64,000 nucleotides of DNA from Rhyzopertha dominica (taxonomy: Eukaryota; Arthropoda; Insecta; Coleoptera; Bostrichidae): the NCBI GenBank assembly GCA_025024175.1, contig QCXZ01000064.1, forward strand, positions 59,603,325 to 59,667,324, read 5' to 3'. Positions 1-54,731 of this stretch are shown here, piece by piece. Position 1 is the stretch's first letter. Each line of letters opens with the position of its first letter. The position numbers and the translations under genes were made by a program. Under the pieces are notes generated by a model. The model ran no database searches and had not been told where the DNA came from. It worked only from the letters and a program-made list of their open reading frames with translations.

Positions 1-454
1 ATAGCAATACTTGCTTCTCCACCCCGTATATCCAGGAGCGCATTTCATCCCATAATGTGCCACACTCAATTTGACGCGCTTTTCATTTACAGTATAGACG
101 TGCCTGCAGCCGGCGACGTTTTCCACATTTCCCTTTTGTCAGGCTGTCCGCCCACACTTCCATACACGTTGTGTTTGCCCTCGTTAATTTTGACAAGCAT
201 CAAAAACCACATTCAACCCTGAAAGTATTACCAGCTACTGGCATTTTGTTGAAATACGAAAACAGAAACAGGTCCTAAGACCTGAGTATTTTTTAGTTTG
301 TACTAGTGTGGATCTTCATTTTGATATCGGCAGTAATATCACAAGAGAGTGAGAATAAATTGAAAATAATTTGACAGAAATTCAACAATGCGTTGCCCAG
401 GAAACAGACACGAGAGACGGTAGGGCTCGAGTGCCTGTTGCAAATTTATCGAAC
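1..454. other. No gene seen; flank of Tc1 element
   Basis: AT-rich sequence without a recognisable coding region, RNA gene or repeat. Short open frames here match no family I know. Confidence 0.5.
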
Positions 455-715
455 AATCGAGTGGATTTTTTTTAAACAAACTTAAAATTTTAACGTTTTG
501 TGATGTTTTATTATTATAATATCTTAAACGCAAACATGACAACTTGTTTTAAGTATTTTCTAACAACAAATTACCCTTTATTTGAAGAAAAAAATTGTTT
601 TTAAGCAAAAATTCACAAAGTGCATAGTTGGCTATGAACTCCAGGTAACAATGCTTTGTTTTTATTGTTTTGAGAAATCTGACAGGTGTAAATCACATTT
701 GAAATTGGTGTTTTT

Positions 716-1958
716 ATGGTTGTTAATCCCGAAACCGCGGCTGCTATTGTTGCATTGCTTCAAGATGGAAGAACTGAGCGATATGTTGCCCAACAGTATC
801 ACATAACCAATAGCACTGTGCACTCTATTTTTATAGGTTTCTTGGAAACTGGAGCTTACACCAGACGACCTGGAACTGGTCCCCAACGAAGAACTACCGC
901 TCATGATGATCGATTTATCGTCTTACAAAGTCTTCGAGATCGTCGTGCTACGGTTGTAGAGTTCAGAAATCGACTTCGTCACGCCCGGAATACCAATGTA
1001 AGCGAGCGGACGTTTAGGCGAAGACTTGGAGAAGCCAGTCGTAGACCTGAAACAGGTCCAGAGCTTCCTAGAAGTCGTCATGTTGCGCGACTTCAGTATA
1101 CCAAAAATCAGGAGCAATGGGGTGAAAATGAATGTGGACGCGTTTTGTTTACCGATGAGTCCAGATTTAGCCTGCGGTCTCCAGATGGTCGTGAGAGAGT
1201 ATGGCGAAGACAACAAGAGCGTTTTTTCAGAATGTACCTTCAGTCCCAGGATAGGTTACCAAGGGGGCTCAGTTATGGTGTGTGCAGGAATTTCTCTGGA
1301 GGCACACACAGAATTGTACATCCTTCCGAGAGGTTCCTTAACTGCTGCCAGGTACAATGATGAAATTCTCCAAGATCTTGTTGTCCCGTATGTTGATTTT
1401 ATTGGACCTGACTTTCTTCTGATGCATGATAATGCCAGACCCCACACCGCGAGAGTCACACAACAGTACTTAAACGTATACGAGGGTGAATGCTTTCAGC
1501 GTCCATAATATAATAAGATAATATTTTGTCGGATAGATCGCTGTCTCTTGAAAAACACTGACAAAAAATTAATAGTCTGAAGGTTCAATTACACCTGTAA
1601 TCTTTGTCAAAGACGAAGAACCTCAAAATTTGCCTGACACAAGCTCAAACAAATTTTTAAATTTTTTCAAGAGACAGCGATCTATCCGACAAAATATTAT
1701 CTTATTTTAGTACTTAAACGTATTAAACATTCCTGTTATGGAGTGCCCAGCGATAAGTCCAGATGTGAACCCAAATGAACATGTTTGGGACATGCTTCGA
1801 CGAAGGCTGCGACGTCGTGTTCCTGCTCCTTTAACTTTAAAGCTCTTTTAGAGGAATGGGAACGTATTCCTCAAGAGAACATTCGCCATTTGATTTTAGG
1901 CATGCCAAGGAGAATACGTGGATTAATTCGAGAACGTCGGGGCAACACCCGTTATTAA
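716..1958 (+). pseudogene. Tc1-like transposase, broken by frameshifts and an insertion
   Basis: Cut-and-paste transposase of the Tc1/mariner superfamily. The N-terminal part (716 onward) contains the paired helix-turn-helix DNA-binding region. The catalytic DDE residues are spread over different frames: the first D in LFTDESRF (near 1145-1170, frame of 716), the second D in MHDNARPH (near 1422-1445, another frame), and the E in NPNEHVWDML (near 1770-1800) after the inserted element. The frame changes once near 1200-1225 and the gene is split by the insertion at 1480-1708. The coding end is GNTRY then stop at 1956-1958. The copy cannot make an active enzyme. Identity is certain at family level; the exact subfamily is not determined. 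Confidence 0.85.
1480..1708. mobile_element. 229-bp inverted-repeat element with 15-bp target duplication
   Basis: Inserted in the Tc1 transposase. The 15 bases AGTACTTAAACGTAT occur at 1465-1479 and again at 1709-1723, a target-site duplication; removing the insert plus one copy restores the transposase reading. A segment of about 43 bp at roughly 1512-1554 is repeated as its reverse complement at about 1663-1706, leaving a 32-bp extra piece on the left only. No coding capacity. A 15-bp duplication is long for a DNA transposon and more like target-primed retroposition. No hammerhead core is present. Confidence 0.7.
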
Positions 1959-2194
1959 AAATGTCTCTTTACAGTTTTTGATAGCAAATTGTTTCAGTTT
2001 TGATTAATTTAACGTCCTCATGTATTAATTTCTAACAAAACAATTTTTCTTTTGAAGTAATCGTTCAGTTTTTGTTAAATAATACTTACAACATGTTATT
2101 ATGTCTCCGTTTAAGATATTACAGTAGGTAATAAAACATCACAATTCATTTGTTTTAAAAAATTCAGCTGCTCCGTTTTTCTTGCCGGTGAGTG

Positions 2195-3665
2195 TATATT
2201 TTCATTGATCTTTTTATTGATTTCATCGAATGNAGACGAATTAAATCTTGTTACACACATTTTTAGTAAAGTTTGATGACAGACAATATCTGATGCCATA
2301 CAAAGCCTACCTTAAATTATGCATGAAATCTGATTTAACTTATGAACTATGTTAAAAAATTCGACCCTCTATTATTTTTACTGTCTCCCATGGTTACCAA
2401 AATACGCTGGAAAACACAAGAGTTCTGGATACCCTGAACATCTTACTGTGCAAAAGACTTGTTTCTTTCAGTATGAATTGAAGCATGTAGTGAAAAGCAG
2501 AATTTTTCAATTGGAAAATCTCATCAGTAGCCCGAATAGCCCTATATTTGGGTGTGTGTTGTGCTTTGACGCCTCTCGTTGCAAAAAAAGACGAAGTTTT
2601 CGTTCCCTCGACCGATTAATTACAAAATATTGTCAAATATGACCCTCGCCTTTAATCACACGCTCCTAATCAATCAAAGTTGGCAAGTGGCAGTCGCTGG
2701 TGGTGTCAGAAATCCCGTCAGTAATTGATTAATCCGTTTTAAATAACCCGCGTCTCTTAGAAAAAGCGTCTTTCCTCGGAGGACGCGTTTATCGGACTTT
2801 TATTAAAAGTTCTCGAGTTTAATCGTTGGACATCTGCGAGTCATTACGTGGATTGTGTACATCCCGGTTGATGGATGCTCGTGTTTGCATCCAGCGTGTA
2901 TTTTGTAATGCGTGCGTTTACCTGTGCTGATTGAGATGGATCGGGGCGAATGGGAGATTTCTTTCTGGAAAATCGCAACGGAAAACACAAACGATAGCGC
3001 TACGGGGCTGAAATAACAAACGGGGCATCGGTTTGCCTTATGCAAATTAGAAAAGTTTACATACAGAATGAAACTAGCGGCGCACACTCATAAAAATCAC
3101 TCGCTACGCATTAATACTATTTATTAGACACCAATCAGTTTTATCTTTGCTGTAGAGGCAGGTAACATTTTATTTCGAAATAACAAGTCGTCTATCCTGA
3201 TTAATTTCACTTGCAAATGTAGAATTCGTTGCAATAAAATTGTAAACTGCGTAAAATTAAAATATGGAGTTACTACATGTTATTTAAAAAAATGTACTTA
3301 CTAGTGGTGACTTAATTGGTTATGAAAGACTTGTTTTCTTTGCTGGAAATATTCATCGTTTTTTCACATTTTAATGTGTTAAATTAAAACGTACCTTTTA
3401 CTGCGCTAGGGTTAGGTATACGGTTCCTTATTGCACTGAAATAAGTCATTTTGAGTAAACTTATTTTAATTTAAAAGTAAATATTAAAGGTACAAAGCGT
3501 TACAGTTCAGATTATGTTTTCGATATTCATAAAGTACCAAGTACATATGAGATTTATTATGTAGGGACGGAAGAAGAAAAATGTCGGTCATAAAAACAGC
3601 AAAAAGGGCACAATTTTTTAAATATTTGAATACCTTGTCTTAAAAAATCTTCGAATATCAATATA
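2195..3665. other. Intergenic; GC-richer island at 2640-3100
   Basis: No convincing gene. Between about 2640 and 3100 the sequence is less AT-rich, non-repetitive and contains an octamer-like ATGCAAAT at 3041-3048. Open frames on both strands here lack recognisable domains. The look is that of a constrained non-coding element, but this is inference only. Confidence 0.35.
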
Positions 3666-3946
3666 CAGGGTCGATACAAAGTATGGAATCAGCAGGATAT
3701 TTCAGGTTCTTGCATTTTCTGGAATTTTTTCAGCTTCGTGTCAGCTCTGGGCGCAAGTTGCATTTTTTAATGGGAAAGGCTTATCATTGAAACTTTTTCC
3801 TGATTTCAAAAATATATCACACAATTTATTGCTTCTGGATTGAGAAAGATGTGACAAGAAACTTGGGTCTTGCAAAAACCTGCGGGATAAAAATCATATT
3901 CGTTATCGCTAAGTAAGAACAAAAACTCCAGCTAAAAATGCATGTC

Positions 3947-4051
3947 TATGCTGTGCTGTCTACACCTCAACCAACTGCAGATAGTACTATTTCGCTGTCA
4001 TTACAGCTCATCAGTGCAGTTTATGTCTAGTGTAGACAACACGACATAGAA
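3947..4051 (-). ncRNA. Hammerhead ribozyme, type I (minus strand)
   Basis: On the minus strand the core CTGATGA (4014-4008) is followed by a 5-bp stem II with a 4-base loop, then GAAA (3993-3990), a short self-complementary stem III, and the cleavage triplet ATC, with predicted cutting between 3980 and 3979. Stem I pairs AACTGCA with TGCAGTT next to the core, then has an internal loop and a long outer stem. All conserved hammerhead core bases are present. Open stem I makes it type I. Confidence 0.88.
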
Positions 4052-4261
4052 CTAGTTTTGCATTACACTGACATGATGACAAAGCCACCTAGCTGCCTTA
4101 ACGGGAACTACTTCCTAAAGGAAGTGACCTGTAGTAGTAAGTAGTTCCCGTTAAGGCAGCTAGGTGGCTTTGTCATCATATCAGTGTAATGCTGACAGAT
4201 GGCATTGCCATCCTAAATTTGTACTTTCATCATACCATTGCTTTCGTATATAGCAAAACCA

Positions 4262-4366
4262 GTTCTATGCCGTGTTGTCTACACTAGACCTAAACTGCAC
4301 TGATGAGCTGTAATGACAGCGAAATAGTACTATCTGCAGTTGGTTGAGGTGTAGACAGCACAGCAT
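4262..4366 (+). ncRNA. Hammerhead ribozyme, type I (plus strand)
   Basis: Core CTGATGA at 4300-4306; stem II GCTGT/ACAGC (4307-4311 with 4316-4320) closed by loop AATG; GAAA at 4321-4324; stem III ATAG/CTAT around a 2-base loop; triplet ATC ending at 4334, the predicted cleavage point. Stem I pairs 4293-4299 with 4335-4341; after an internal loop an outer stem pairs GTCTACAC (4277-4284) with GTGTAGAC (4349-4356) and continues with a few mismatches. The internal loop in stem I is where tertiary contacts with loop II occur in natural hammerheads. Confidence 0.9.
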
Positions 4367-4606
4367 AGACATGCATTTTAATGTATGTTGGTTCTTGCCC
4401 GTCAGCAAAAAGTGCCGTGGGGACCTGCTGTCAAATTGAAGTATGCAGTTGCATGCCAATTTGTCAGGCTACAGGTCACTTCCTTTAGGAAGTAGTTCCC
4501 GTTAAGGCAGCTAGGTGGCTTTGTCATCATGTCAGTGTAATGCTGACAGATGGCATTGCCATCCTAAATTCGTACTTTAAAAACTCCAACTGTCTCCATT
4601 TTCCTC

Positions 4607-5010
4607 GTGACTGGTGACAATTTTTCATTCACTTTGTTAGTTGCAATCGCAATGCCTCAGTTAACTGAACATGATCGCATCGAAATTTTGATGATGATTG
4701 GTTATGGAGGTAGAAGGCGAAGTTATTCGGAAGTAGTTGCACTCTACAATGCAATTCATGAAAATTATGGGCCAGTTTTGACGAAACCGGCGGTGTTAAA
4801 TCGTCAAAAGTTGCTGAGTGAGGAAAGTAGCTTGAATGTCCTTTTAGGTTTCGTAGAACAGCGTGCTCTGACTCACCATATTAGCAGAAGATCTGTTCAG
4901 AAAATTCTGAAAAAAGAGTAGTTTCATCCATACAAAATTCACTTACTACAAGAACTGAGCGAAGATGGTTTCGATCGTAGCCATAAAGAAAATTGTTTTC
5001 ATTCTTTTTG
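4607..5010 (+). pseudogene. Mariner-family transposase remnant (N-terminal DNA-binding part)
   Basis: The frame starting within 4607-4921 reads MPQLTEHDRIEILMMIGYGG, which resembles the N-terminal helix-turn-helix region (DUF4817-like) of a widespread arthropod mariner family. Near 4885-4920 it continues with SVQKILKKE, then a stop, then the family-typical FHPYKIHLLQEL downstream to about 4965. A large internal deletion appears before the catalytic region, and no DDE motifs remain. It lies between the element's inverted ends, downstream of the hammerhead insertion. Non-functional. Confidence 0.75.
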
Positions 5011-5281
5011 TCCTTTGTCAGGCTCAATTATTGTATTTCTTTTCTTAATTCAGAAGCAATAAATTGTACAAGTGTGATACATTTTTGAAATCGTTTTCAA
5101 TGCCTTTTGACCCCCTTCCCATTAAAAAAAATGCAACTTGCGCTCATATCTTGGAAAAAGAGCTGATACGGAGAGAGAGAAAATGCATTTTAATTATTCA
5201 TAAGCCCATGCACAATTTCAGAAAAATCGGTCGAACAGAACCTGAAATATCCTGCTGGTTCCACACCTTGTAGCAACCCTG

Positions 5282-7256
5282 TATATGATGCTCTTTATTG
5301 GATGACTACTCATGTAATGCTGGGGAGCACTGTAATTGAAAACATCATTCGTCAACGAACGCCTATTTATTTTAACTTTCATCATAAGAAGCAAAATTTA
5401 TACTTCAGATGTGATGTAGCACTGAGCTCTGGAAACATATTTCGCTGCAGTTGCATTTCCAGAATTGTTCTTGTATTCGTTGCTCGTGCTAAAGAATCGA
5501 CCTGGGAAATCAAATGTCACCATGATTGAGTCACACATTCTATACGTCTGTCAACCGTGTAATTCGTTTTGTAACTCCTTTTTCTGGGTTGCTCCGCAGT
5601 ACGATCAGAACTGATATACAGTACATCCTTCTTTCATAACCGGAAAAGTATTTCATAACTCGAGATCAAAATGATCATTAGTAACATAAATTGATGGAGT
5701 TTTCTCGAGAAAAATTATTTGAGTACGAGTTGTCTTTTAGAAAACAGACTAAATTTTCTGGTTTTCAGTTTGGAACATTACTTTTTACATATGATGCAGT
5801 GCAAAACTGAATATTTTCGTTTCAGATTACGATAAAAGTACAAACGCTTGCATTCCCCACATTATGTAATGATTGGATAAGCCGTAATATTTACTATAAA
5901 TATGAATAATCTTTTGCGTGATAATTCGCTTTATCATGTTAATGCATGTTAAAAGTGATATTTAGTTAAAACTTGTCTAGCAAGCCAAGGAATCTTGAGT
6001 GATTGAAGTTGTATCTTACAAAGTGATTTGCGCTAAAGACTTATTATAACAAAAAAAATTTAGTATTTATTCTCTGAAGTTCGCGATCCAAACCTTACTA
6101 TTTTAAGTCAATCATTTATGTTACTTATATCACATTCTGCTGATATTTATTGCTACAAGTTTATTTTACTTTGTATATAAGTATAATTAAGTCTTTTGCA
6201 CTCCAGGCTCAATGTGACCTCATCATCGGGCCAAAGGCTACAAAATGAAAGGCGAAAATCTACGTACGATTGTCATCTGCACACCATTCTTAACAGATTA
6301 CTAATTAGTCATTTCATCAGGTTGTTTTGCTCAATATTAATATCGGTTATTAATATCGAAATTGGGTCTTGCATCTAAAAGATGGTTTGCAACCAGTGAA
6401 TAATTTTTTGCCAATTGTAAAGACTTTACTTACTTTTATTATTGGTTTAAAATTTCCACCTACACAGTTACAGTATTTGCGTAGTAATTTCTACACCCAA
6501 CATTTATACATCATAGCACTACATATTTATTATTAAAAAATGCCTTTTCTAAATTATAAAATTTTCTTTATTTACTTTTTTTCGATATTTTGTCGCTAAT
6601 GTTACTTGCATGAGAAATTGAATAATATTCTTTTTGCATTTGCTATAGCTTTTTTGTTGAAATCAAAGTAAATCAAAGCATGTTATTTTCAAATAGGAAC
6701 TGCTTTATTTTTAGCTTATGATTATTTCTTGAGTAAACGTGCCGCTTTTGAATTTGTAATAAATTTTCGCCAACTTTTTCTGTTGTTATCTTTTGCGGTT
6801 ATATAATACACATCACAAAAAACGTATTATCGTTTTCGCTCGTTTTATTCCTTTTAATTACACATTGTTCGTGACTCCCCTTACCGTAGTGTAACTGATA
6901 TGAGACGAAGACAAAACAATAATCTCTTATTCTACCACGTGATTTCAATTCCGAGACTAGTAATTGCATTTCTCGAATTGTAATCCTGCGTAGCCTTAGG
7001 TCTCTCTGTTAGACACCCAGGATTATTGTTTACTCCGCGTATTGTGCTCAACCACGTACAATTCTTTCATATTGCCTCTCCTCCGGGGCATTGCAATTCC
7101 GCCAACATGAAGCTTCGGGCAGCTACACCTACATTCGGCAAGTTTAGAGCTTTAGGCAGGCAATGACGTAGTATACGTATTGATTACATTGTTACTAACA
7201 CTTCTTGAATAATCAAGGACAGAATTGAGGAAAAATATGCCAGCCAAGTACAACTA
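5282..7256. other. Intergenic, no gene recognised
   Basis: AT-rich sequence with only short open frames and no family resemblance. A short GC-richer patch lies at about 7075-7180. No RNA gene or repeat structure seen. Confidence 0.5.
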
Positions 7257-8588
7257 CGAGGCATGTTTTTTAAGTAAGTACCGTTTTGCGATTCCGCCGC
7301 CGCAGCGCTACGGTCGGCGTTCCGCGCATGCGCGCTGGTTACCTACATCTCTTGTCTACGCACTGACGCCATTACAGTTTGATTCTTCATTGTATACGTT
7401 GTTTACTGAGTGTTTAAGATGCCTCCGACAATCGTGAGTCCCGCCGATTGTGAAGTACGGGCTGTTATACGATTTCTTAGTGCTAAAGGCGTAAAACCGA
7501 TCGATATTCATCGTGAGATCTGTGAAGTTTACGGACAAAACATTATGAGTGATGGAATGGTAAGGAAATGTGTGAGAGCATTTAAAGATGGCCGCACAAA
7601 TGTGCATGATGAAGAACGGAGTGGGCGTCCTTCGGTCGTTAATGAAGATTTGGTGCAGAAAGTGAACGAAAAGGTGAGAGAAAACAGACGCTTTACAATT
7701 TCATCATTGTGCGACTGCTTTCCTCAATATTCTCGTAGTGTTTTGTATCGCATTGTGACCGAGAACTTAAATTACCGGAAATTGTGTTCACGTTGGGTTC
7801 CGAAAATGTTGACGGATTTGCACAAAACCCAACGTTTAGGCAGTGCATTGACTTTCCTTGAGCGGTACCACAATGAAGGTGAAGATTTTTTAGACCAAAT
7901 TGTTACTGGTGACGAAACATGGGTGGCCTACGTCACACCAGAATCGAAACAACAATTCATAGAATGGCGACATTCATCATCACCCAAAAAAGTGAAGTTT
8001 AAGCAAACAATTTCTGCCCGGAAAATCAGGTGCACAGTTTTTTTGGGACAGAAAAGGAGTATTGTTAGTGGAGTTTCTGCCTCGTAATGAGACAATCAAT
8101 GCAGCGTCTTATTGTAAGACATTGAACAATCTGCGTCGTGCAATCCAGAACAAAAGACGTGGCAAGTTGAGTAAGGGTATCGTTTTGCTGCATGACAATG
8201 CCCGTCCACATGTGGCTAATCGGACCAAAGATCTCATCAAATCTTTTAAATGGGAAACTCTAGATCATCCTCCATACAGCCCTGATCTGGCGCCCAGCGA
8301 CTACCATTTGTTCCTGCACTTGAAGAAACACCTGGGTGGTCAGCGTCTTCAAGACGATAACGAAGCCGAAACATTTGTGATACAGTGGTTAACAAGTCAG
8401 GCGGCAGAATTTTATGAGGAGGGTATTCAAAAACTGGTGCCACGTTATGACAAGTGCCTCAATATTCACGGAAATTATGTAGAAAAGTAAATTAGTGTAC
8501 AGGCTTTCATGCAAGATAAAATTATTGCGATATCTTTGCACGTCTTTTTTTAATTTCAAAACGGTACTTACTTAAAAAACATGCCTCG
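7257..8588 (+). mobile_element. Mariner transposon, nearly intact, perfect 32-bp TIRs
   Basis: The 32 bases at 7257-7288 are the exact reverse complement of 8557-8588, and both ends are flanked by the TA target duplication (7255-7256 and 8589-8590). The element is 1332 bp, a normal full length for mariner, and contains one transposase gene. Perfect ends and a nearly open gene suggest a young insertion. Confidence 0.95.
7419..8490 (+). pseudogene. Mariner transposase with a single frameshift
   Basis: Transposase that cuts and joins mariner ends at TA sites. The N-terminal half contains the two helix-turn-helix motifs (for example DGMVRKCVRAFKDG). The catalytic triad is DD34D: D in VTGDETWV, D in LLHDNARPH, D in YSPDLAPSDYHLF. 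The first part runs from about 7419 to near 8045 and the remainder continues in the next frame to the stop at 8488-8490. The break coincides with a run of seven T at about 8037-8043, where six would keep the frame open. Apart from this indel I see no other lesion. It could be a true mutation or an assembly error. Confidence 0.9.
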
Positions 8589-22621: not shown

Positions 22622-23527
22622 TTAAGAGCCATTTAGCATAAACGCAGTAAAATTTGGGCTTGTTACAGGTCGATTATAGAATTGTGCGAAGGTAGTAGAT
22701 CTTTCGGACCATCCAGCTGCCTTCCGGATGGAATCTATATCTAGTCCTCTGCGCCGAGCTGCTGATGTAGATGCATGCCTGGTTGAGTGTGCTGAATAAG
22801 TTGTTGTGTCTATGCCTGCTGCTTCCAAAGTTCTTTTGATCCATCTTGATAGACTTTGTTTGGAAGCCCTACAAAAAGGTCTACGAGTGCTTAAAAATAA
22901 ATAATCTTCCTTCTCTCTAATTGATTCAGTGATTTTTAGATAGTCACATAAGCAAGTTGCTACACATAAAGCAGGATTATCCGTAAAAAAGGGTAATTCT
23001 AGACAAGGTTGAGGCCTGCCTGGGGCTGAAGTCTTAATAAGATCTGATATTAAAATAGTTACGCCCTCTGATGATCTGATAATCCCAGATAATTTAATTA
23101 AAGACAAAGTCTGCATGCGTTGAGCTGTAGTTAATGCTAATAATGTAATTAACTTTTTTGACAATTCCTGCAAAGGTAAATCTTGATTTGGAACTTTAGT
23201 TGCCAACAAATCTAGAACCCTCTGAGGGTCCCAAGTGAAAGAGTACCTGCATGAAGCTGGGCGTAATCTTGCAATACCCCTAAGGAACCTCTTAACCTCA
23301 GAATTATGGCTGATGTCAACCCTTAGAATAAGAGATAAGGCTGAACGGTGGGAATTAAAAGTTCCATACTTGCATGCAAAATTATCAAAAATATATTGCA
23401 AAAATAATATCACCTCCGACACTGATGCTGCAAAAGGATCTGTTTGCTGTTGAGCACAAAATTTCCACCATAGTTTGTAGGTTGTTTCATACTGCTTTAT
23501 AGTTGCAGCTGATAAGGAACTCATCAT
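22622..23527 (-). CDS. DIRS tyrosine recombinase
   Basis: Integrase of DIRS elements, which inserts a circular DNA intermediate by site-specific recombination rather than by a DDE reaction. The 301-residue frame is open. Visible phage-integrase-type catalytic residues are R in TTAQRMQTLSL, the H-x-x-R box in AHSTRHASTSAA, a W in AAGWSERSTTFA, and the nucleophilic Y in FAQFYNRP near the C-terminus. An N-terminal SAM-like core-binding region starts with ATIKQYETTYKLWWKFC. It lies just downstream of the RT gene in element sense, a 32-base gap apart; in DIRS elements the two commonly overlap, so the true start may be further upstream. It ends 180 bases before the internal complementary region. 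Confidence 0.92.
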   Translation of the reverse strand: MMSSLSAATIKQYETTYKLWWKFCAQQQTDPFAASVSEVILFLQYIFDNFACKYGTFNSHRSALSLILRVDISHNSEVKRFLRGIARLRPASCRYSFTWDPQRVLDLLATKVPNQDLPLQELSKKLITLLALTTAQRMQTLSLIKLSGIIRSSEGVTILISDLIKTSAPGRPQPCLELPFFTDNPALCVATCLCDYLKITESIREKEDYLFLSTRRPFCRASKQSLSRWIKRTLEAAGIDTTTYSAHSTRHASTSAARRRGLDIDSIRKAAGWSERSTTFAQFYNRPVTSPNFTAFMLNGS

Positions 23528-23559
23528 AGTTGAAATGGCATTTTCTGGAACTCCTTTTC

Positions 23560-25542
23560 CTAAGAACGCCTGCCTGATAATAGTCCGGCAACCAAGGTAA
23601 GGGATGATGAGAGTGGATGAGTCCTTCTGAAAGGAGACGAAAGCATGAATTCATCTGGACCCAGAAAGACTGGCTCTTCCTTTAATAATTTATTAAACAG
23701 AGGGTACCATGGCTGCGAAGGCCAAAATGGTACAACCATGATACCTTCCGCTCCCTCTGATACAATCTTATTCAGGGTTCTAAGTATGAGGGCAAAAGGA
23801 GGAAAAGCATAAAAGAAAATGTCTTTCCAAGGATACGTAAATGCATCAGTACCTACAGAATCAGGATCTAAATGCCACGAATAAAATTCAGAACACTTGG
23901 TGTTAATTCTTGATGCAAAAAGGTCTATAGAAGGAGTGCCAAACTTATTAATAATTATGTCAAAGAAATAAGATCCCAATTCCCATTCTGTTTCAATAGA
24001 AATCTTCCTCGATTCGAGGTCAGCCTGAATATTATCTTCAGATTTTATGTAAGCTGTAAGTAACCATATATCTCTACGTTCACACCACTGCCAAATTCTT
24101 TTTGCCAAATTTGATAATTCTGGGTATTGTATACTACCCATCTTCCTAATGTAGGCCAGAGCTGTTGAATTATCTACTCGAACCAGAATTCTGCAAGAAT
24201 TAAGTTTAGAGGCAAAACACTTTAGACCAAGGAAGACTGCAAGTAATTCCAAATAATTTATGTGTTTTTTGGCATCATCCAAATCCCACCAGCCATGGGT
24301 AGACAGGTTACCAGTAGATGCACCCCAACCTGTAGTACTAGCATCCGTAAAAATCTCCATATCGAAAAAATCCTGATTCAAGTTGTGACTGGAAGACAGA
24401 ATGTTCTTCTCCCACCACACCAAATCTTCAATTAAATAAAAAGGAAGTTTCATAGATTTATTAAAATTTTGTTGTGATAATTTTAATGCCAAAAACTTTT
24501 CTCTTTCTAGGCTTCTAGTGTACAGTAAGCCATATCTGACAGCTGGACAAGCAGCAATTAAAATTCCAATAAACTGAGCTAATTCTCTGATAGTACAACT
24601 TTTACCTAGAAGATTTTTAAAATGTAAAACCCTAGAAAGGATCTTATGACGTTTTGAATCTGGCAAGCTTAAGGACATGTCCATGGAATCAAAGATAAAC
24701 CCCAAAAATTTACATTGTCTAGAAGGGACTAATCTACTTTTTGTATAATTAATAATAAATCCCAAGGATTCTAGGAGTGAAACTGTATAACTGACATGTT
24801 TCGAACATTCATCATAAGAGTCTCCAATAANAANAAAGTCGTCTAAATAGACAACAACTGTAATACCTAATCTACGTAGATGAGATACTACAGGCTTCAT
24901 CACTTTAGTAAAGATAAAGGGTGCTAACGAAAACCCAAAGGGAAGGCAAGTGAATTCATATAGTGAATTGTTGAAAGAAAATCTAAAAAATTTTCTGTCC
25001 TTATTCAGAATAGGTATCATATAATATGCGTCCTTTAAATCTATAGATGCCATATAGGAGGAATGATGCAATAATCTGCTTACAGTTCTATAGTCCTCTA
25101 GTTTAAAGTGACTTGGATTTACATAGGCATTAAGGTTCTTAAGATTTAAAATGAATCTCTTTTTTCCATCAGGTTTAGTGACCAAAAAATAAGGCGACAG
25201 AAACTGACCTGAGCAGCTGGTACATTTGTTAATGACCCCCTGTTCCAGTAAGGAACAAATACTAATGCTCGTGTCCTGAATTTCTTTTTCAGACAAACGC
25301 CTAGAACGAAAGTTCTGAGTCTTAGGTAACGGATGTTGAAAAGGAATTTTAAAACCCTGAATCCATTGTAAAACCAGAGGATTAGAAGGTAAATTTAACC
25401 ATTGATCATAAAAGCCTCTTAGTCTGCCTGCATAACAGGTACTTACAGCTACTTGCGACCCCTCCTTGGATAACTGTCTCTCTCCCTCCTGACTTTGAAC
25501 GACCTTCTGGAGGATGGCCCGTCGGTTCTCGCTTCCCTCCAT
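23560..25542 (-). CDS. DIRS reverse transcriptase / RNase H
   Basis: A 660-residue open frame. It has reverse transcriptase with RFILNLKNLNAYV, motif A SIDLKDAYYMIPI, motif B FGFSLAPFIFTKV and active site VVVYLDDF. RNase H follows with catalytic acids in EIFTDASTTGWGAS, NYLELLAVFLG and VRVDNSTALAYI. The C-terminal part has the DIRS-typical DLFASRINTKCSEFYSW and VVPFWPSQPWYPL. Two unresolved bases (24832, 24835) fall just after the YLDD box but cause no frame break. The frame begins after a degraded gag C-terminus, so the first 40 or so residues may really belong to gag. Catalytic residues all look intact. Confidence 0.92.
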   Translation of the reverse strand: MEGSENRRAILQKVVQSQEGERQLSKEGSQVAVSTCYAGRLRGFYDQWLNLPSNPLVLQWIQGFKIPFQHPLPKTQNFRSRRLSEKEIQDTSISICSLLEQGVINKCTSCSGQFLSPYFLVTKPDGKKRFILNLKNLNAYVNPSHFKLEDYRTVSRLLHHSSYMASIDLKDAYYMIPILNKDRKFFRFSFNNSLYEFTCLPFGFSLAPFIFTKVMKPVVSHLRRLGITVVVYLDDFXXIGDSYDECSKHVSYTVSLLESLGFIINYTKSRLVPSRQCKFLGFIFDSMDMSLSLPDSKRHKILSRVLHFKNLLGKSCTIRELAQFIGILIAACPAVRYGLLYTRSLEREKFLALKLSQQNFNKSMKLPFYLIEDLVWWEKNILSSSHNLNQDFFDMEIFTDASTTGWGASTGNLSTHGWWDLDDAKKHINYLELLAVFLGLKCFASKLNSCRILVRVDNSTALAYIRKMGSIQYPELSNLAKRIWQWCERRDIWLLTAYIKSEDNIQADLESRKISIETEWELGSYFFDIIINKFGTPSIDLFASRINTKCSEFYSWHLDPDSVGTDAFTYPWKDIFFYAFPPFALILRTLNKIVSEGAEGIMVVPFWPSQPWYPLFNKLLKEEPVFLGPDEFMLSSPFRRTHPLSSSLTLVAGLLSGRRS

Positions 25543-25818
25543 CTGCGAGAAGGGCCCCTCCGGTTTAAAGTCCTATCCACCGCAGAATGCACTCTACCAG
25601 TGTTGTTGCGTGGTTTAAAAGNGGTTGCTGAGCCCTGGGTCTTCAGTTCCTTACTAGTTTTCTCAACAGCCCTTGCTGCTTTAATGCGGTCTGATAAATC
25701 ATTTCCAAAAAGATTCTAAAGCTTTTAACCGCTTTGAAAGTTCCCTTCTGGACAGAAGATGATCCGGAGACGGAGATCGGGATCTTTTATCTCGTCTATG
25801 TTTTCCCATGGCTAGAGC
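25543..25818 (-). pseudogene. DIRS gag remnant, internally deleted
   Basis: On the minus strand a start near 25810 reads MGKHRRDKRSRSPSPDHLL, the basic, serine/arginine-rich beginning common in DIRS gag proteins. After about 36 codons it shifts to a different frame reading NDLSDRIKAARAVEKTSKEL and NNTGRVHSAVDRTL, which resembles a gag C-terminus. The large middle of gag is absent, and an N sits at 25622. Confidence 0.65.
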
Positions 25819-30400: not shown

Positions 30401-33400
30401 AGTAAGGACACGTTTGAAAGAACACGTATGTGGTGTTAGGTCACAATAGATAGATAAATTTTCCGTAGCTGGATACTCATACTGAACTAAATATATGATT
30501 GATAAAATAAAAAATTTACATAGAGAAAAATATTATTACAAACCTACAAAATTTCTAGAAATGCAAATAACGTTAATAGGCATTATGAGTTAGGTGATAT
30601 TTGGAAGGCTTTTTTGTAGTCTTCTTTTATCAAGTAATTCGTGTATATTCAGTAGGGAGGATGAAGCTTTTAATGAAATTACCTGCTGTTACTCAAAATT
30701 TCACCGACGGCAATTACTAGTTTGTTTCCGGTCAACCCTGTCATACTAATTTCACTACCAACCCCATTGGCTACCAGTACAGCTGCCAATGAATTCTGTT
30801 CCCCAAACCATGGCACACATATCACTGGAACTCCGTGATGTGTGGCTTCTATAGCACTAAAGATATCGCAGTGGCTTACGAGAAGCTTTACCTTTGGGTG
30901 TGCTACAAAAGATTTACTAAAATTTGTGCATTGAAGCGCGCAGTGCTCACCTAAAATATCGTTCCGTGGTAGCAGTTGGCCAGTTTTGATGTTTGGAAAC
31001 GTGGAATCTTCTTCGGCGTCCCACTTAGCAATTACGCGTAACGGTAGTTGCGACAGTGATTGGAACAGGTCATCCAATTGCGATTGTGACAGCAAATGTG
31101 GTTCTAAATTGAAGTAAATTGCACCCTGCGTTGCATCATCTAGAAATGCTTTCAGTTCCTAGATGAAAAAGATATAGAGAGTGATTAGATTTAGAGGAAA
31201 AATTAAAAGCTTCTAAAAATAGGTAAACTTTTGGTTTCAGGGGGTAATAGAAGATAAACACATTTTTAATTGGATTATGTTTTCTGATGAAACGACTTTT
31301 GCCTCAATGGTAATGCGAATAGACATAATTGTAGATATTGGTCGGATACAAATCCACATTGGATGGAACAGGTCCACACACAACACCTTCAGAAAGTGAA
31401 TGTTTGGTGTGGTATTATTGGGCCTTCTTTGATCGATTGAAATTTGAATGCGGTCAGGTATTTACAGCTCCTGCGCGAACACATTATACCAGAACTTATT
31501 CGTCTGTTCAGTAATTATGAAAATTCTGCGCGCCATTCTGAACAGATATGTTTTCAGCAAGATGGTGCACCGCCCCATTTTGCAGTCAACGTTCATGGAT
31601 ATTTAAACGCAATATTTCTAGACAGATGGATTGGTAGGCGCGGAGCGATGGGATTACCAGCACGTTCCCCTGATCTGACGCCGCTTGATTTTTTCATGTG
31701 GGGGTATCTGAAAAATCGTATTTATGCTGTTCGGCCACATAATGCAGAAGATTTAAAATAATTTTGAGCATGTAAATCTAAAAGATACAGCATTTTTCAC
31801 GGAATCATGTTTTTCTTTATTACTTTTTGGGTATCCGATTTGCAGTAAATTGATCAAACTAGAACAATTAGAAAGCCGAATGTTGGACGAAGAAAATCTT
31901 TTTTTATTATCACGATGGCGCCCCACTGCATTACACAGTTAATGTACTGTAACGGACGGTACAGACCAACGACCCGGGTTTCGTGTATTTTCAAAACCTG
32001 AGATATTCTCATGGAAACTGAGGAACAGCAGTACCCGCGTATGTGCGATTTTATTATACACCTTTTGTAATAAAAGTAAGGAAATGGAAACGAACGTGCC
32101 GATGAGTTGATTGCCATAGTGTTCTCACCGATGGTGTAATTTTGCGACGTGAGAACCAACCGCGAGTATTGCTGTTCCGGCAAAATTTGCGATGGGTTCC
32201 AGATTCCCTCAAAAGATCTCAAAATCAGTTCCCTAGTAACCGTCGTCGCGTAAACTTTAAATCGAACATTTCAGTTGTAAGTTTTATTAAGTTTTTGTCG
32301 CGTACTAAAGTATCAAAGTGGGCTAAGTTTTTCGTTTAGGACGATACGGATTTACCCTTTCTTGGATAATTCACATCGAGGGACTTGCTTTTGGGTATCG
32401 TTAAACTTTTCATTTCGGTAATTATTGTTTGTATTTGTTTTCCAAATTTCAAGTAAATTTAGCTTGGTTTGGTCAGTTCCAGTAACGTAATTAACAACGA
32501 TTTAAAAGAAATACTGGATAATTGCTATATGTTCCTACGACAGTTTTCACATTTGTTCTTTATATGTATCAATCGTAATTCTTTAGTCATCTTGTTTGTC
32601 TGATAATTTTCTTTCATCGAGTTTATCAATAAATTTAAGTAAAGTCAGAAATCGGTGTTTAATTTATTAAAAGAGCTAAGTAAACTTCGTGCTTCGAAGG
32701 TATCTCTCGTCCCGAAGAGAAGATCAACGTGGGGAGTTAGCCCCTACTTAAATTTCTACACTCCGGTGTAGTGGTGGCAGCGAACGCTATCCAAAGACAG
32801 AGTTCAGAGGGTAACAGTACGAATCGGTTAAATCATAGATTTTCTAAGTGTGGAACAACTGAAGCTCCGCCACGACCACCAAATTTTTAATGGTTTACAA
32901 AACACAACCTTTTCTATTTCATTTGTCTGCACGCGATGTTAACCCTTACCTGTGGTAGTTCTTTGGGTCTTTGAACGTGGAATCCTCCAATCGGTATAAC
33001 GTTAGGCACTACAGGCCTGGGGCTCTCAAAGCTGAAATGACCATTCGACATCACTAGAGCAATCTGCTTCCTTAACTCGTTCACGCTCGGTGGATTTTTC
33101 AGAACCTTCTTCAAAATCTCATCCTGTACTGCCTGATTCTTCCAGTTTATTTGATATTCGTAATACAACCCATTTATGGTATTCCTCAGTCGTTGGAAAA
33201 AGCCCATACGGTCGGTGAGAGGCAGACCAATAATCGGAACATAGGCAAACGGTGCTGGGTTGCCAACTGAGTTTAAAAAATTCGTACCGTAAGGGGCCAG
33301 CAACACCACGGGAGCTGCGAAGACGTAACCAAATACTAGATTTGCGTCGTTCATAAACCAGTCGAGGATTATTACGTCAAACGTGCTCTTGAACCTTAAT

Positions 33401-36227
33401 AGATTTAGGGTTTCCGGGTGGGTGAGTGCTCGTTCTGTGAAGTACTCTGCGAGGTTCATCAAGGGATGTAGGTCGGTTATTGCGTTTCGGTCATTCGGCA
33501 GTAAGGATTCAAGCTCTGGAAGGGAGAATTATTAGCTTACCAAAGTTTGTCGAAAGCAAATAGGAAATATTATATTTGCTTTTTGTACATACAGGCACTT
33601 TCTTCTTCTAATAACATTTTCTGATTCAGTTTTTAGTATTTTCACATATAATAATAATGATAATAATAATAATAATAATGTTTATTAATGCCTGACAGAC
33701 ATATTTGTCTATATAGAGCACAAAAATACAAATATATAAAATCAGAAAAAAATAATACAATCATATTATACATGCCTGAGTGTACACCAGTAAATCTTAT
33801 AAACTAAGCAAACAATTCTAGTAACTTTCGTTTCATTGAAGTTGTCATAAAAAAATATTAAAATTACTGTTGGTCATAACACAATTACATAACTTAAATG
33901 CCATTATCATGGCGCAGTTGCAATGATGTTGAGTGGACGGTTCACGGTAATAAAAGGGAACAGGCGATCTGCTATTAACTCTGGGGACATTTATGCTTAT
34001 CTCATTCAGAAGAGTACTACTAACTACTTTACCGCAAATAATTTTTGTCTGTTCTCAAGAGAGACTTCATTAACAACATTTAATAGCGCGCTCTGATCAC
34101 AATGTCTTGTAGGGTAAAGATCAAACATTTTAAAGTAGAGATACTTGGAAAACTTTCTTAAAATATTTTCCAACAGATCAATATATTGCTGCTGGTAAGG
34201 ATTCCAAATTACACTGCAGTATTCGAGCTTAGATCTAAATAAGACATAAAACAATAACTTTATAGCAAAAATGTTATTGAATTCAGAAGTATTACGCATA
34301 ATAAACCCCAGAGTCTAAAGTGCAGCAGCCGCAACATTTTCAATGTGCTGAACAAAAGACAACTTACAGTCAACGATAACACTAAGTCGCTAATTTCATC
34401 ACATTTGGAAAGTACCATTCCCTGAGATGTTGTAGAAAAAGTTAATGCATATATTTTTTCTGCCGAAGGTCACTATTTTGCACTTATTAATATGTTTAAT
34501 TCAAGTTTGTTCGTGAAACACCATCTATTTAAATTGTCAATATCCTGCTGAAGAAGCAAGCAGTCCGAATAAGTCAGTATTTTTAAGTCATCGGCATACA
34601 TGTAAACATTACACTTAAGCGCTTTTACTACATCGTTGAAAAATATTACGAATAATTGTGGGCCCAGGATCGAACCCTGAACCACTCCACTAGTCGCATG
34701 AAAAGTGTTAGATCTAAAACCACCATGTTCAACAAATTCCGCTAATCCATCAAAAGAGACTTAACAACAGAGACAAGCCCATCGCAAAAACCAAAATTTT
34801 GCAGTTTATTCAATAGAAAGCAGTGATTAACACGATCAAAAGCCTTTTTGAAATCAGTATACGCAACGTCAACCCTGTAAACGTTCATCAAGAGATTTAG
34901 ATATAAGATGTGTAAACTCGTAAAGATTAGAAGTCGTTGATTTTCCCTTAACAAATCCGTGCTGTTCCAGTGCTATATAGGGCTCAATATGTGAATAAAT
35001 AACTTGAGACAAGACCAACTCAAATAACTTAGCAAAATTGGCCATAAGAGCAATAGGTCTATAATTGCAAACATCCGCTTTATCACCATTTTTAAAAACT
35101 GGAGATATTCGTGACGTTTTCTATACATCGGGAAAAGTTGTTATTTCACAATTAGATTGAAAATGTGACATAAAGGCAACACTAAACACTTGATACAATC
35201 AACCCCAAGAAGGCTGGAACATTATCAGGACCGGAAACAAAATTACATTTAATGTTTTTAGCAGCTCTCAAAATGTCATTCTCATTTATATTAAACATGT
35301 GTAAAGTAAGATAATTGTCACTATTTGTAGATGATGGACTTCGTTGGCATCATCTTCATAGCTATGCTCATACGGGCAGCACGCACTATCACAAAAATCG
35401 CAGACTCTGTTGCCACAGATTCCATCAGAAACATGGTTAAAGTCATTACTGAACACACTAGCAAAGAAATTACCAAATGCATTCACAATATCTGCTGATA
35501 TAGGAACATTTCTGTATGTTAGATTCCCTGGAATACCGCCCGTTCTTTTTTGGCATTAACAAACGACCAAATTTGTGTGGTGACTGCTTTATAGAGTTTT
35601 CGCTGCGCCTGATAAAACTGACATGCTTTCCGAATTTCCTGACGCACATCTCGCCTTAATGATTTAGCTTATCAAAGTGAAATTGCAACTTCGATTTCTT
35701 GTAAAGATTCGACTGTTTATTTTTTGTATTATAAATATAATAAATATACTTGTTTTTTTCATAGGATTTAATAGTTACTTGCAGTGCTGTTTCGATATAA
35801 AATTTATATACTTGCAGTGTGTTAGAAAAGGCTGGAATAAATTTAGTGTTTTCATAAGTGCGAATGGTGCCATAAAATATGTGGATACGATTTATTTTTT
35901 CTGGTTCACATTTTCAGGAATATAAAAACGATACATAATGGCGCTAGCAATTTGTACTAATATATAAGTATGTATGTCAATTTTTGCTTACTTACTTTGC
36001 TTTTCTTGTGCAAGTCCACTCAGATATATCACTTTATAGTTAACTGTAGATATTTCTTCAAAGGCCGACAACATTGTCACGTTATGCCCTTTGATTGCTA
36101 GCTCCTTCAGAAGAGTTTGTCCCAGTACATGATGATCCTTCTTTGGGTAGTGAAAAACACCCAAAATATTCGCTGCATAACAAACTGAAGTATGTATGAG
36201 TATCGATAGTGCAACTGTCCTAAACAT
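27454..36227 (-). CDS. UDP-glycosyltransferase (UGT-A), five exons
   Basis: ER enzyme that transfers sugar from a UDP-sugar to small lipophilic acceptors. Proposed exons (minus strand): 36227-35996, 33515-32950, 31158-30951, 30902-30683, 27763-27454. They sum to 1536 bases, 511 residues, with GT/AG borders and matching phases. Signal peptide at the N-terminus (ending near CYA|ANILG), C-terminal membrane helix FLLDIVVFMSAIAVVTILIL and a dilysine ER-retrieval tail (KKSV). The donor-site region is diverged: AIYFNLEPH replaces the usual FSLGSN, VSHCD replaces THGG, and FGEQN replaces FGDQ. It has one intron (31159-32949) that UGT-B, -C and -D lack. The 48-base intron 30903-30950 is a multiple of three and free of stops. 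Introns hold a hAT element, a LINE and a mariner fragment. Confidence 0.85.
28209..30284. mobile_element. hAT element in UGT-A intron
   Basis: Flanked by the 8-bp duplication CATAGAAC (28201-28208 and 30285-30292). The ends are inverted: GAGGGCCGGCGAG at 28209 against CAGGGCCGGCGAG read from 30284; CAGGGCCGG is typical of hAT ends. A further GGGGCCCGG motif follows both ends. No transposase is recognisable in the interior, which includes a T-rich stretch (28740-29240) and a nested MITE. Non-autonomous or decayed copy of 2076 bp. Confidence 0.85.
29764..30001. mobile_element. MITE with 21-bp inverted ends, nested in the hAT element
   Basis: GAGGCGCTTAAAGGCAAAGG at 29764 is mirrored by CCTTTGCCTTTAAGCGCCTC ending at 30001. 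The interior of about 195 bp has no coding capacity. Possible AAT flanks on each side would give a 3-bp target duplication, but this is uncertain. Confidence 0.65.
31246..31760 (+). pseudogene. Mariner-like transposase fragment in UGT-A intron
   Basis: Starts in mid-protein with WIMFSDETTFA (first catalytic D, about 31275-31305), then frames shift. It continues as YLQLLREHIIPELIRLF, CFQQDGAPPHFA (second D) and RSPDLTPLDFFMWGYLKNRI (third catalytic position) and runs out at 31760. The N-terminal DNA-binding region is absent. It lies in antisense orientation to the host gene, inside the intron found only in UGT-A. Same broad family as the relics at 4607 and 12784. Confidence 0.78.
32320..32790 (+). 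other. Possible solo LTR with primer-site-like sequence
   Basis: The segment ending around 32770 is followed by GTGGTGGCAGCGAAC (32770-32784), which resembles the junction of an LTR and a primer-binding site in insect LTR retrotransposons. No second LTR or pol gene is seen. Weak call. Confidence 0.25.
33650..35660 (-). pseudogene. Jockey/CR1-like LINE in UGT-A intron 1
   Basis: Minus-strand remains of a non-LTR retrotransposon in the same direction as the host gene. In element order: FVNAKKERAVFQG and NAFGNFFASVFSND (about 35550-35440), VAYTDFKKAFDRVNH (motif A, about 34870-34820), GSILGPQLFVIFFNDV, YMYADDLKIL (active site, about 34605-34575), LEYCSVIWNPY (34230 region). The 3' end is an (ATT)n/(TAA)n tail at about 33654-33679. 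Several frameshifts and stops interrupt the reading, so it is inactive. Loss of its 5' end fits the usual truncation of LINEs. Confidence 0.85.
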
Positions 36228-37778
36228 ATCGAAAGACTAGTTTCAGGGCAGTGTAATCGGTTTCTCTCTGTTGGTGTTATCGTGTGTTATCTTTATTATT
36301 TGATAAATAAAATGAGGAACTGATGCTGGCTTAAAAAAAGTGGATGTGCATCTTATGAGTTTGCTTGTTTGTAATATTTTTATACAATTAGTATTAAAAG
36401 ACAAAGTAGTCGTCGTTTTGTGGTCTTGATGCACCGCATTTATTACAAAAGAATGCATATATGTACAATTAAATGCTACTAAAATATAAATTTGTACCTT
36501 ATCTACAGAATTGTAAATCTTTTATGCAACTACATATCTTAGTCTTTAAAAACTGATTATACTTGAATGATTTATAACGCAGAGAAACGAGTATTCAAGT
36601 TGATTTATGAGGTAGTTTCTTACGAAATTTACCTGCAAATTGATATTAATTAGAGATATAAGCATTCTGACATCTCGTGGTGGTATGTATTACTTTTTGT
36701 TGGGAAGCAATCAATACTTCAGCTGAGCTATTGGTTGGTAGATGGCTAGTTAGTTCGGTGGTAAAAACAATTGTATTTTGATATCTTGTGCTACAAATTC
36801 TTATACATTTCAGGGTTGTTACAATGTTTCCTTTTTAAAGAAATTTTATAATCCCACATACTAAATAAGTGATTCTGCAATATAAATTTAAGGGTTATCT
36901 TCCCTAATATACAAAATACAATATAACTGGAGTATTTTAGAGTATTATATTCATCATCAACAATCGGTGTTAAAACGCTTAGCCTTAGCCTTAATAGGCC
37001 TATTAATTACATTTTAGTTACATTTTTGCATATTCGTTCAATGTGGTTTTAATTGTCTGTTATTTTGAACTTACTAAACTAAACTGTGGTGCATTTTCAG
37101 AAATTCGTATTGCCTGTTCTTGTCAATTCGGTTTTTAAAAGATTGACAACAAAAATGAACGTGCATTATTGTTAAGTATAATTCGCTCTGTCCATTTGCT
37201 GTAATAAGCAATGAGAAGTAAATAAAATTTATATTCAAGATGTAATATAGCCTATGCCAGGGTGAAGGTGGAACGTAATAAGATTGTAGAAGTTCTTCTT
37301 TTTTCATAATGGCTTGTTCTAAACATATTTTACAACTCTGGATTACATCTTTATTTTTTTTCTCATTTCTATCCATAGTACAGGGTTTTTATTATTTCCT
37401 GCCTTAATTTTTAGTGCAACCTTGCTCTTGTATTTTTATTGTCACTTTTGCTTCACCATTATCCGAGTCATTTCAGAATGGCTTAAAGTCTGTTGTAATA
37501 ATAAATTCACAACCATACACATAAATACAAACTTTGACAGATATAATTTCAAATAAATCTAATGTACCTTAAAGTTAATATACCTGTTATTATTACTATA
37601 ACAGTTTACTGATTTACTGCAAGAACGTAGACACTCAAACACGTATCAAAGCGTGATTATCAACAACTTGAACTTAAAAGATACTAAGTAGTATCTGATC
37701 CAAATTACTTGAATAGACCACCAGACAGTTGCTATCCCATAGAGCATACCTATTTGTTTAAAAGCAACCGATAAAGTG
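36228..37778. promoter_or_regulatory. Head-to-head spacer between UGT-A and UGT-B
   Basis: UGT-A starts at 36227 on the minus strand and UGT-B at 37779 on the plus strand, so this 1.55-kb AT-rich spacer should hold both promoters. No clear TATA/initiator pair can be singled out by eye. No coding region recognised. Confidence 0.4.
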
Positions 37779-40700: not shown

Positions 40701-40936
40701 AACCTATGGATACTGCGATATACTGGGTAGAGCATGTTCTAAAGTACAAAGGTGCACCACATCTGAGAAATGCTGGTTTGAAGCTGAGATGGTATCAATA
40801 CTATCTTCTGGACGTGATTGCTTTTTTGCTTGCAGTACTGGTTATACTAGCACTTATCAATTTTTATACATTCCGTTTAATCATTAGGTTTTTGAAGAGG
40901 AAACTTATAGGACAGCAGAAAGTAAAAATGAATTAG
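37779..40936 (+). CDS. UDP-glycosyltransferase (UGT-B), four exons, intact
   Basis: Proposed exons 37779-38016, 39534-40325, 40377-40596 and 40648-40936 (238+792+220+289 bases, 512 residues). Phases agree and introns begin GT and end AG. Cleavable signal peptide (MNLLSCVAVLLIAGC..VEA), then ANILAVFPLPSPSH with the conserved acceptor-side histidine. N-terminal acceptor domain in exon 2. Donor-binding C-terminal half with FFSLGSNLKSSELP, WLPQRAVL, HPKVDLFITHAGLLSLTEAV and FGDQN. C-terminal membrane helix YLLDVIAFLLAVLVILALI and a KxKxx-type ER tail (KVKMN). One unresolved base at 40036 in exon 2. The first-intron interior (38017-39533) is AT-rich without a clear repeat. All expected features of an active enzyme are present; substrate unknown. 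Confidence 0.92.
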
Positions 40937-42490: not shown

Positions 42491-42633
42491 AGGTTTTTTA
42501 ATTGCCTGAAGCTGATGTGAGGGGTGAATGGTGAACCACAATGACAAACTCTTCACCTTGTATTCAGACTAAAAGTTTACGATTGCGCGATTAGGATGCT
42601 GTGATTCATTTGATGATTTGCTAGATAGTGTTG

Positions 42634-42657
42634 TGTAATATCTTATCCTGCTCACTA
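42634..42657 (+). promoter_or_regulatory. Conserved upstream block with GATA site, UGT-C
   Basis: Twenty-four bases ending 72 bases before the start codon that match the block upstream of UGT-D (46761-46784) with one difference. It contains CTTATCC, a GATA-factor site on the other strand. Conservation with constant spacing in otherwise diverged upstream sequence suggests a promoter element. Inference from two paralogues. Confidence 0.5.
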
Positions 42658-49349: not shown

Positions 49350-49410
<61 letters not shown>

Positions 49411-54342: not shown

Positions 54343-54403
54343 TGTTCTTCAACGAGATTAGGTTTTCACGGAATTGTTTGTAAATAAACTATAAGAACAA
54401 ATT

Positions 54404-54717
54404 AANATGCATGTGTATACTGTGCTGTCTACACCTCAACCAACTGCAGATAGATCTATTTCGCTGTCATTACAGCTCATCAGTGCAGTTTAGGTCTAGT
54501 GTAGACAGCACGGCATAGAACTGGTTTTGCTTATATACCAAAGCAATGGTATGATATAAGTAAGAATTTAGGATGACAATGCCATCTGTCAGCGTTACAC
54601 TGACATGATGACAAAGCCACCTAGCTGCCTTAACGGGTACTACTTCCTAAAGTAGGTGGCTTTGTCATCATGTCAGTGTAACGCTGACAGATGGCATTGC
54701 CATCCTGAATTCTTACT
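54404..54717. mobile_element. Hammerhead-ribozyme foldback retroelement, copy 2
   Basis: A 314-bp insertion just after UGT-E, flanked by the 14-bp direct repeat TATAAGAACAAATT (54390-54403 and 54718-54731). It is closely related to 3934-4578 and has the same two outer ends (ATGCATGT at the left, GCCATCCTGAATTCTTACT at the right). The long left part (54404-54648) is the inverted copy with the ribozyme; the short right part (54649-54717) repeats a piece of it in the opposite direction. No coding capacity. Confidence 0.82.
54414..54518 (-). ncRNA. Hammerhead ribozyme, type I (minus strand)
   Basis: Minus strand: CTGATGA at 54483-54477, stem II with the same 5 pairs and AATG loop as in the 4-kb copies, GAAA at 54462-54459, stem III ATAG/CTAT with loop AT (TA in the other copies), triplet ATC, predicted cut between 54449 and 54448. 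Stem I pairs AACTGCA/TGCAGTT plus a long outer stem. Core intact. Confidence 0.88.
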
Positions 54718-54731
54718 TATAAGAACAAATT

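Follow-up and report, generated by a model that had tools for sequence, protein, structure and literature searches.

Retroelements that carry hammerhead ribozymes without coding capacity are the closest described relatives of the insertions studied here. Metazoan non-LTR retrozymes, as presented in the available portions of PMC7229834 and PMC7761336, have a type I hammerhead, a tandemly repeated unit of ~170-400 nt, low GC, no coding sequence, target-site duplications longer than 4 bp and many dispersed copies. Plant LTR retrozymes are similar in using hammerhead-made RNA circles as transposition intermediates, but differ in their type III hammerhead, in the possession of LTR, PBS and PPT, and in their 4-bp duplications (PMC7761336, available portion). 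According to the same text, retrozyme repeats carry no conserved motif that could betray their helper, and Penelope-like elements (PLEs)/Terminons are named as likely helpers on the grounds of shared hammerheads and co-occurrence.

PLEs are also close to the insertions described below: a hammerhead is located close to their start, copying can begin at internal sites, and in vitro the enzyme cuts and extends both strands (PMC3846280 and PMC11167929, in the parts available). Those of Adineta vaga consist of inverted pLTRs placed head-to-head, with 8-10 bp duplications and an optional tail on one pLTR, and self-priming on antisense RNA was proposed for them (PMC3846280, in part). For PAc of Anolis, the available text of PMC11167929 reports that both strands are cut and extended with a preference for ATT, that there are two internal start sites, that in vitro the start site showed no difference between top and bottom strands, and that insertion in vitro does not require ribozyme cutting. 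It places the cut 26 bp past the start codon and the main start at ORF 111-118, with a 30-40 bp tail between starts; from these figures we reckon the main start at +82 to +89 from the cut, whereas a value of ~+42 to +59 for the second would require it to be upstream, a position that the text leaves unstated.

Here, we describe a new retrozyme family of this known kind in Rhyzopertha dominica, with a type I core, tandem 351-nt units and duplications longer than 4 bp; local GC in the window is 0.35-0.38 (2-kb bins), and the call of no coding rests on unit size. PLEs encode a reverse transcriptase (RT) and an endonuclease and carry minimal hammerheads, whereas the retrozyme is 351 nt long and non-coding, with starts 154 nt apart (PLE features from the same partial sources). 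Since such a unit is too short for an RT plus a GIY-YIG endonuclease, the retrozyme is not a PLE and only its integration pattern is PLE-like. Metazoan non-LTR retrozymes are described, in the text available, as tandem repeats, whereas most insertions examined here are head-to-head with two fixed ends. The words 'inverted' and 'head-to-head' are absent from the main text of PMC7229834 as available, and a literature search confined to main texts, partly available, returned neither a description of retrozymes inserted head-to-head nor a rule pairing one end of each kind; we did not find this insertion architecture described.

Two insertions in the window

One insertion occupies positions 3934-4578 of the window (the whole 64,000-nt stretch of DNA analysed), with a 351-nt unit, a type I hammerhead core on either strand and the 13-bp duplication AAAAACTCCA[G/A]CT around it (Table 1). 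Unit positions are counted from window 4335, the first base past the predicted hammerhead cut. Specifically, the minus arm runs from its outer end, site B, to unit 270, skips units 210-269, a stretch of 60 nt surrounding site A, and continues from 209 to 135; it begins from the same site B sequence, GCATTTTAAT, that is carried within the plus arm. Direct repetition at 351 nt was found between 4135-4227 and 4486-4578 (97% identity), and the arms match in inverted orientation at 3935-4068/4246-4379 (96%) and 4060-4134/4469-4543 (100%). The complete cores on both strands, the 351-nt period and the 13-bp direct repeats reported in the initial annotation were therefore all recovered, the repeats with one mismatch. 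The family is represented in the window once more, by an independent insertion at 54404-54717 that is flanked by a separate 14-nt duplication.

Table 1 Features of the two retrozyme insertions, in window coordinates
Insertion	Feature	Position	Strand	Remark
1	Left target-site duplication copy AAAAACTCCAGCT	3921..3933	.	12/13 identical to right copy
1	Minus arm	3934..4134	-	Outer end = site B (unit 45)
1	Type I hammerhead core	3980..4014	-	Predicted cut adjoining 3980
1	Plus arm, 1.26 turns of the 351-nt unit	4135..4578	+	Outer end = site A (unit 244, ..GTACTTT)
1	Internal site A copy (unit 235-244)	4218..4227	+	Not serving as an end in insertion 1
1	Type I hammerhead core	4300..4334	+	Predicted cut after 4334
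1	Site B sequence GCATTTTAAT within plus arm (unit 39-48)	4373..4382	+	Predicted in hairpin loop
1	Right target-site duplication copy AAAAACTCCAACT	4579..4591	.	12/13 identical to left copy
2	Left duplication copy TATAAGAACAAATT	54390..54403	.	
2	B arm with hammerhead core 54449-54483 (-)	54404..54652	-	
2	A arm, ~65 nt, end ..TTCTTACT(T)	54653..54717	+	
2	Right duplication copy TATAAGAACAAATT	54718..54731	.	

The core pattern CTGATGA-stem II-GAAA-stem III-ATC matched three times in the window against 0.19 expected, three matches being reached in one of 100 shuffles, and a chance origin of the hammerheads was rejected on this count; the third match is the core of insertion 2. A covariance search matched both cores of insertion 1 to Rfam Hammerhead_HH9 at 28.0 and 26.3 bits, short of the gathering score of 52, and the Rfam search of the window at that score gave zero matches. 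The 134-nt ribozyme arms are predicted to fold far below dinucleotide shuffles (z of -6.3 and -5.0), and the predicted fold of the 351-nt circle reaches -126.1, compared with -84.1 (sd 5.4) for mononucleotide shuffles. The commonest core sequence is shared by 109 of 153 complete genomic cores. Judged from sequence, the family is a bearer of type I hammerheads with a predicted self-cleaving ribozyme.

Several other features surround the insertions. Imperfect inverted repeats at 3743-3847 and 5041-5151 enclose insertion 1 together with ORF 4652-4918, an 89-codon frame for which a Pfam search gave zero matches, and insertion 1 may sit within an older TIR-like element. Window positions 1-8157, including insertion 1, are copied on contig C43 at 99.6-99.8%; this copy is a recent segmental duplication or an assembly duplicate, and the C43 match (L002), being a copy of at least that stretch, was rejected as a separate locus. 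On the minus strand, 22625-25572 contains an RVT_1 frame and, after it, a frame for a tyrosine recombinase (Phage_integrase), a retroelement that we take to be DIRS-like. Remains of transposases occur at 7410-8490 (broken mariner, Mos1-type HTH), 692-1508 (Tc3-type) and 45271-45789 (DDE_3). UDP-glucosyltransferase-like frames are clustered on both strands of 30679-50661; Pfam UDPGT was confirmed at 43134-44102 only, homologues were found for 49786-50658, and the named matches of these exons are mostly insects.

Outer ends across the family

Searching the assembly (479 Mb, 138 contigs) with the element returned at least 357 matches in the 40 places scored of 2756 candidates. Copies with the 351-nt unit are thus abundant, which supports the earlier reading of a small non-coding hammerhead retroelement copied from a circular or multimeric RNA. 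Among the matches listed for this foldback query were 38 distinct insertions beyond the window's own (28 two-armed, 10 one-armed), leaving out the duplicates L001, L002, L013, L014, L017, L020, L022, L026, L027 and L028. Because a foldback query favours two-armed loci, a second sample was taken using nothing but the hammerhead region as query; 40 of 57 candidates were scored, giving 41 matches, and all 33 new places were retrieved. This query passes over very common words, and the sample is therefore not random. Together with the two in the window, 73 insertions were examined. Pieces shorter than 100 nt were omitted (L010 1-39 and L037 362-431, both A-ended single arms), and L031 and L070, each split by another insert, were joined by eye; these later inserts are 1.25 kb long in L031 (1407-2659) and ~400 bp with inverted ends in L070 (329-729).

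We show that 53 of the 73 insertions are head-to-head and two-armed and that 20 are one-armed (5 A, 15 B). Fifty of the two-armed insertions were called by script; L031, with an interrupted B end, and L061 and L075, whose short A arms (14 and 10 nt) were added by eye, make up the rest. Every one of the 53 has one A and one B outer end in the order minus arm, plus arm, and neither A/A nor B/B occurred among them, the absence of A/A resting on the foldback query and on a B-selected sample that is blind to short-armed A/A. In the 33 loci from the hammerhead-only query, 23 are two-armed and all A/B, 10 have a B arm only and none is B/B; by even partner choice, the probability of 23 out of 23 would be about 1 in 8 million (arithmetic). 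The opposed pair had been considered unusual and attributed to inversion during insertion. Neither view was supported: the head-to-head form with an identical pair of outer ends characterises the majority of insertions, a rare one-off inversion is rejected on that ground, and two cDNAs, one per target strand, explain the arms better.

Site B lies near unit 47 (..GCATTTT) and site A near unit 244 (..TACTTT), 154 nt apart with the ribozyme in between, while inner ends vary. Ends called by BLAST fall at 228-274 for A and 44-65 for B, the latter mostly +45 to +52 from the predicted hammerhead cut; the far A values of 259, 261 and 274 are over-extensions, and 236 reflects a mismatch of the window's unit. 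Arms range from 10 nt to about 7 turns, the longest measuring 6.7. One exception is L038, in which an inverted piece of 15 nt, reading unit 16 to 2, lies just left of 2132, on the inner side of its B arm; the outer end of the piece, unit 16, is neither A nor B, and the locus has no duplication. Because the piece ends at neither site, L038 was tallied as one-armed B; if the piece is taken as an arm, the A/B rule stands at 53/54.

These ends bear on how a head-to-head insertion could arise. A LINE enzyme acting by twin priming, with priming at the 3' end and a second strand that pairs internally on the same RNA by chance, would likewise be expected to leave an inverted part and target duplications, and L1 twin priming does give an inverted 5' part and such duplications. 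However, twin priming concerns a minority of LINE copies and scattered sites, whereas here most insertions are two-armed with two fixed sites. Each of the two ends is internal to the unit, and no poly(A) tail was seen at the ends inspected. LINEs and PLEs are both listed as possible helpers in the literature as available, and we consider a LINE route unlikely.

Considerably less probable is a self-primed snap-back, in which a single strand primes reverse transcription and the resulting cDNA, its end folded back at the palindrome ACTTCCTTTAGGAAGT, serves as its own template to give an inverted repeat. The arms are indeed head-to-head, the palindrome lies near the junction in both window insertions, the 15-nt piece of L038 could be one case, and self-priming on an antisense template was inferred for PLEs (PMC3846280, available portion). 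However, snap-back predicts equal outer ends, whereas the two-armed insertions have A and B; moreover, the inner ends of the two arms are more than 10 unit positions apart in 49 of 51 insertions, and arm lengths are often very unequal. Given the unequal outer and inner ends, snap-back was rejected as the main mechanism.

At the join, BLAST pieces overlap by 2-7 nt in 33 of 51 insertions by raw count, uncorrected for chance; such overlaps would be compatible with two cDNAs that converge and are linked through short homology. We noticed a recurrent inner arm end at unit 266-270, ~21-24 nt 3' of A, where insertion 1 jumps from 270 to 209. Arms stopping at 266-268 are the B arms of L065, L067, L068, L069, L071, L075 and L077 and the A arm of L079; such stops near 266-270 could result from a structural stop or from an enzyme seated at A.

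Target sites and likeness of the arms

Target-site duplications were tested in 71 insertions, as two of the 73 lie too close to the locus edge. An exact duplication of 10-17 bp surrounds 46 of them, with a mode of 13 (13 nt in 21, 14 nt in 9), compared with exact duplications of at least 10 nt in 3/347 permuted-flank controls. A wider search that allows over-extended ends gave 52/71 after removal of a false match in L038 that lay inside the element (raw count 53/71), against 8/352 in permuted flanks; 19 to 25 of the 71 insertions are without an exact duplication of at least 10 nt. In L031, a 13-nt duplication encloses the interrupted copy. Just beyond the duplication, both sides tend to read NTT: counted outward, T occupies 80% of flanks at +2 and 78% at +3, as opposed to 28-40% at +4 to +10 (n = 92 flanks). 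TT at +2+3 was found in 30/46 on each side and on both sides in 17/46, while at positions 6-7 it was found in 3/46 and 6/46. As this enrichment lies outside both copies of the duplication, both nicks share one preference.

The arms of single insertions were compared with each other and with those of other insertions. In 18 insertions with enough overlap, mean divergence was 2.24% within arms and 1.95% between arms (r = 0.93), and between-arm divergence follows within-arm divergence over 0 to 7%, as expected for arms that were identical at birth and then mutated independently. Young insertions (L005, L007, L008, L012, L023, L031 and L032) differ by 0-0.41% within and between their arms and by 1.9-2.6% from others; L031 differs at 2/8061 positions within arms and 7/7613 between arms, and by 2.6-2.9% from other insertions. 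When arms were swapped among 30 insertions, the observed similarity was attained in none of 5000 permutations. An insertion's own opposite arm was strictly the nearest in 4/30 and nearer than average in 25/30; it was farther than average in L004, L010, L015, L024 and L047, the likeliest reasons being age, with many mutations acquired since insertion, or a short overlap.

That the foldbacks stem from two independent insertions, or from a tandem array that was later inverted or converted, is the least probable reading of all: gene conversion between arms could likewise keep them similar, but in most tested loci the two arms share one surrounding duplication, the minus arm always precedes the plus arm and the outer ends are one A and one B, and between-arm divergence tracks within-arm divergence over its whole range. 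Overall, the comparison of the copies indicates that both arms derive from one RNA sequence. Units that stay near-perfect through as many as 6.7 turns suggest that the template was a circle; possible alternatives are a pair of identical circles or RNA transcribed from a homogeneous array.

A Penelope-like element and a probable route of integration

A PLE was found in the flank of L034 by its RT-motif pattern, spanning C86:23706068-23707352 (L084 plus the start of L034). It is a single insertion, broken and truncated on its 5' side. One stop-to-stop piece (..RGSPLSPLIANIY..RYVDDTF..) matches RVT_1 at E 0.0056, short of the curated cut-off. A second piece reads ..GVYSIPCSCLKVYIGQTGR.., which we take to be GIY-YIG-like; Pfam and PDB searches of this piece returned zero domain matches, and protein searches named no PLE among their matches. 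Downstream lies a minimal hammerhead, CTGAGGA..GAAACGTC, which was undetected by Rfam on the PLE piece. A second pLTR piece, inverted and 95 nt long (97% alike), is present at the truncated 5' side; the inverted-repeat search within L084 alone found none, the second arm being outside L084. Relative to the hammerhead cut, the plus arm ends at +47 and the minus arm, 34 nt longer, at +81, and the flanks read TTTATGTTT(T)AGTA, differing by one T. Apart from the retrozyme insertion itself, comparison of the PLE with the 351-nt unit gave only matches of 15-24 nt, which carry no weight.

Head-to-head and with one arm longer at its start, this PLE thus has the same form as the retrozyme insertions. 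Head-to-head arms, one duplication around both and two alternative start sites are found in most of the retrozyme insertions examined, and the head-to-head, two-start signature is also present in the sole PLE found. As for a start ~47 nt past the hammerhead cut, the values are mostly +45 to +52 for retrozyme site B, +47/+81 for the PLE, from one copy only, and, as reckoned above, +82 to +89 for the main start of PAc.

We therefore favour, with a probability of roughly three in four, an animal non-LTR retrozyme family whose integration proceeds by target-primed reverse transcription on both strands, most likely with a PLE enzyme. The two-strand priming is well supported by the sequence data, and the mobilising enzyme is likely a PLE RT plus GIY-YIG endonuclease. 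Array transcripts would cut themselves at the hammerhead and then ligate into circles, as is known for relatives. The endonuclease, probably dimeric, would nick both target strands ~13 nt apart, preferring AAN[13]NTT and leaving two 3' ends, a step supported by the target motif and the duplication. One 3' end would then copy the circle from A (unit ~244) and the other from B (unit ~47), as the end positions and sequence identity support. Joining of the cDNA 3' ends, to which the junctions point, would produce a head-to-head insertion with a single target duplication, and a one-armed insertion presumably represents a second strand left uncopied. Points against this route include the PLE tail, which measures 34 nt whereas A and B are 154 nt apart, and the behaviour of PAc, which shows no difference between top and bottom starts in vitro and is not known to follow a strict pairing of one A with one B.

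It is plausible that each insertion used a single shared circle. More tentatively, and at somewhat less than even odds, one circular RNA would serve both target strands through a dimeric PLE-type enzyme with one start site per protomer and two RTs circling, leaving each finished insertion with an A arm and a B arm. If true, head-to-head insertions are what retrozymes and PLEs would normally produce, through a two-strand integration that is both obligate and asymmetric.

Taken together, ends at fixed sites, targets flanked by NTT and a head-to-head arrangement constitute a signature pointing to PLE-type machinery as the helper of this family. A family of many copies built on a small circle offers statistical power beyond that of low-copy PLEs on the question of PLE integration, and its data argue for two-strand priming as opposed to snap-back. 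It also provides two named start sites that are testable in an existing in vitro assay.
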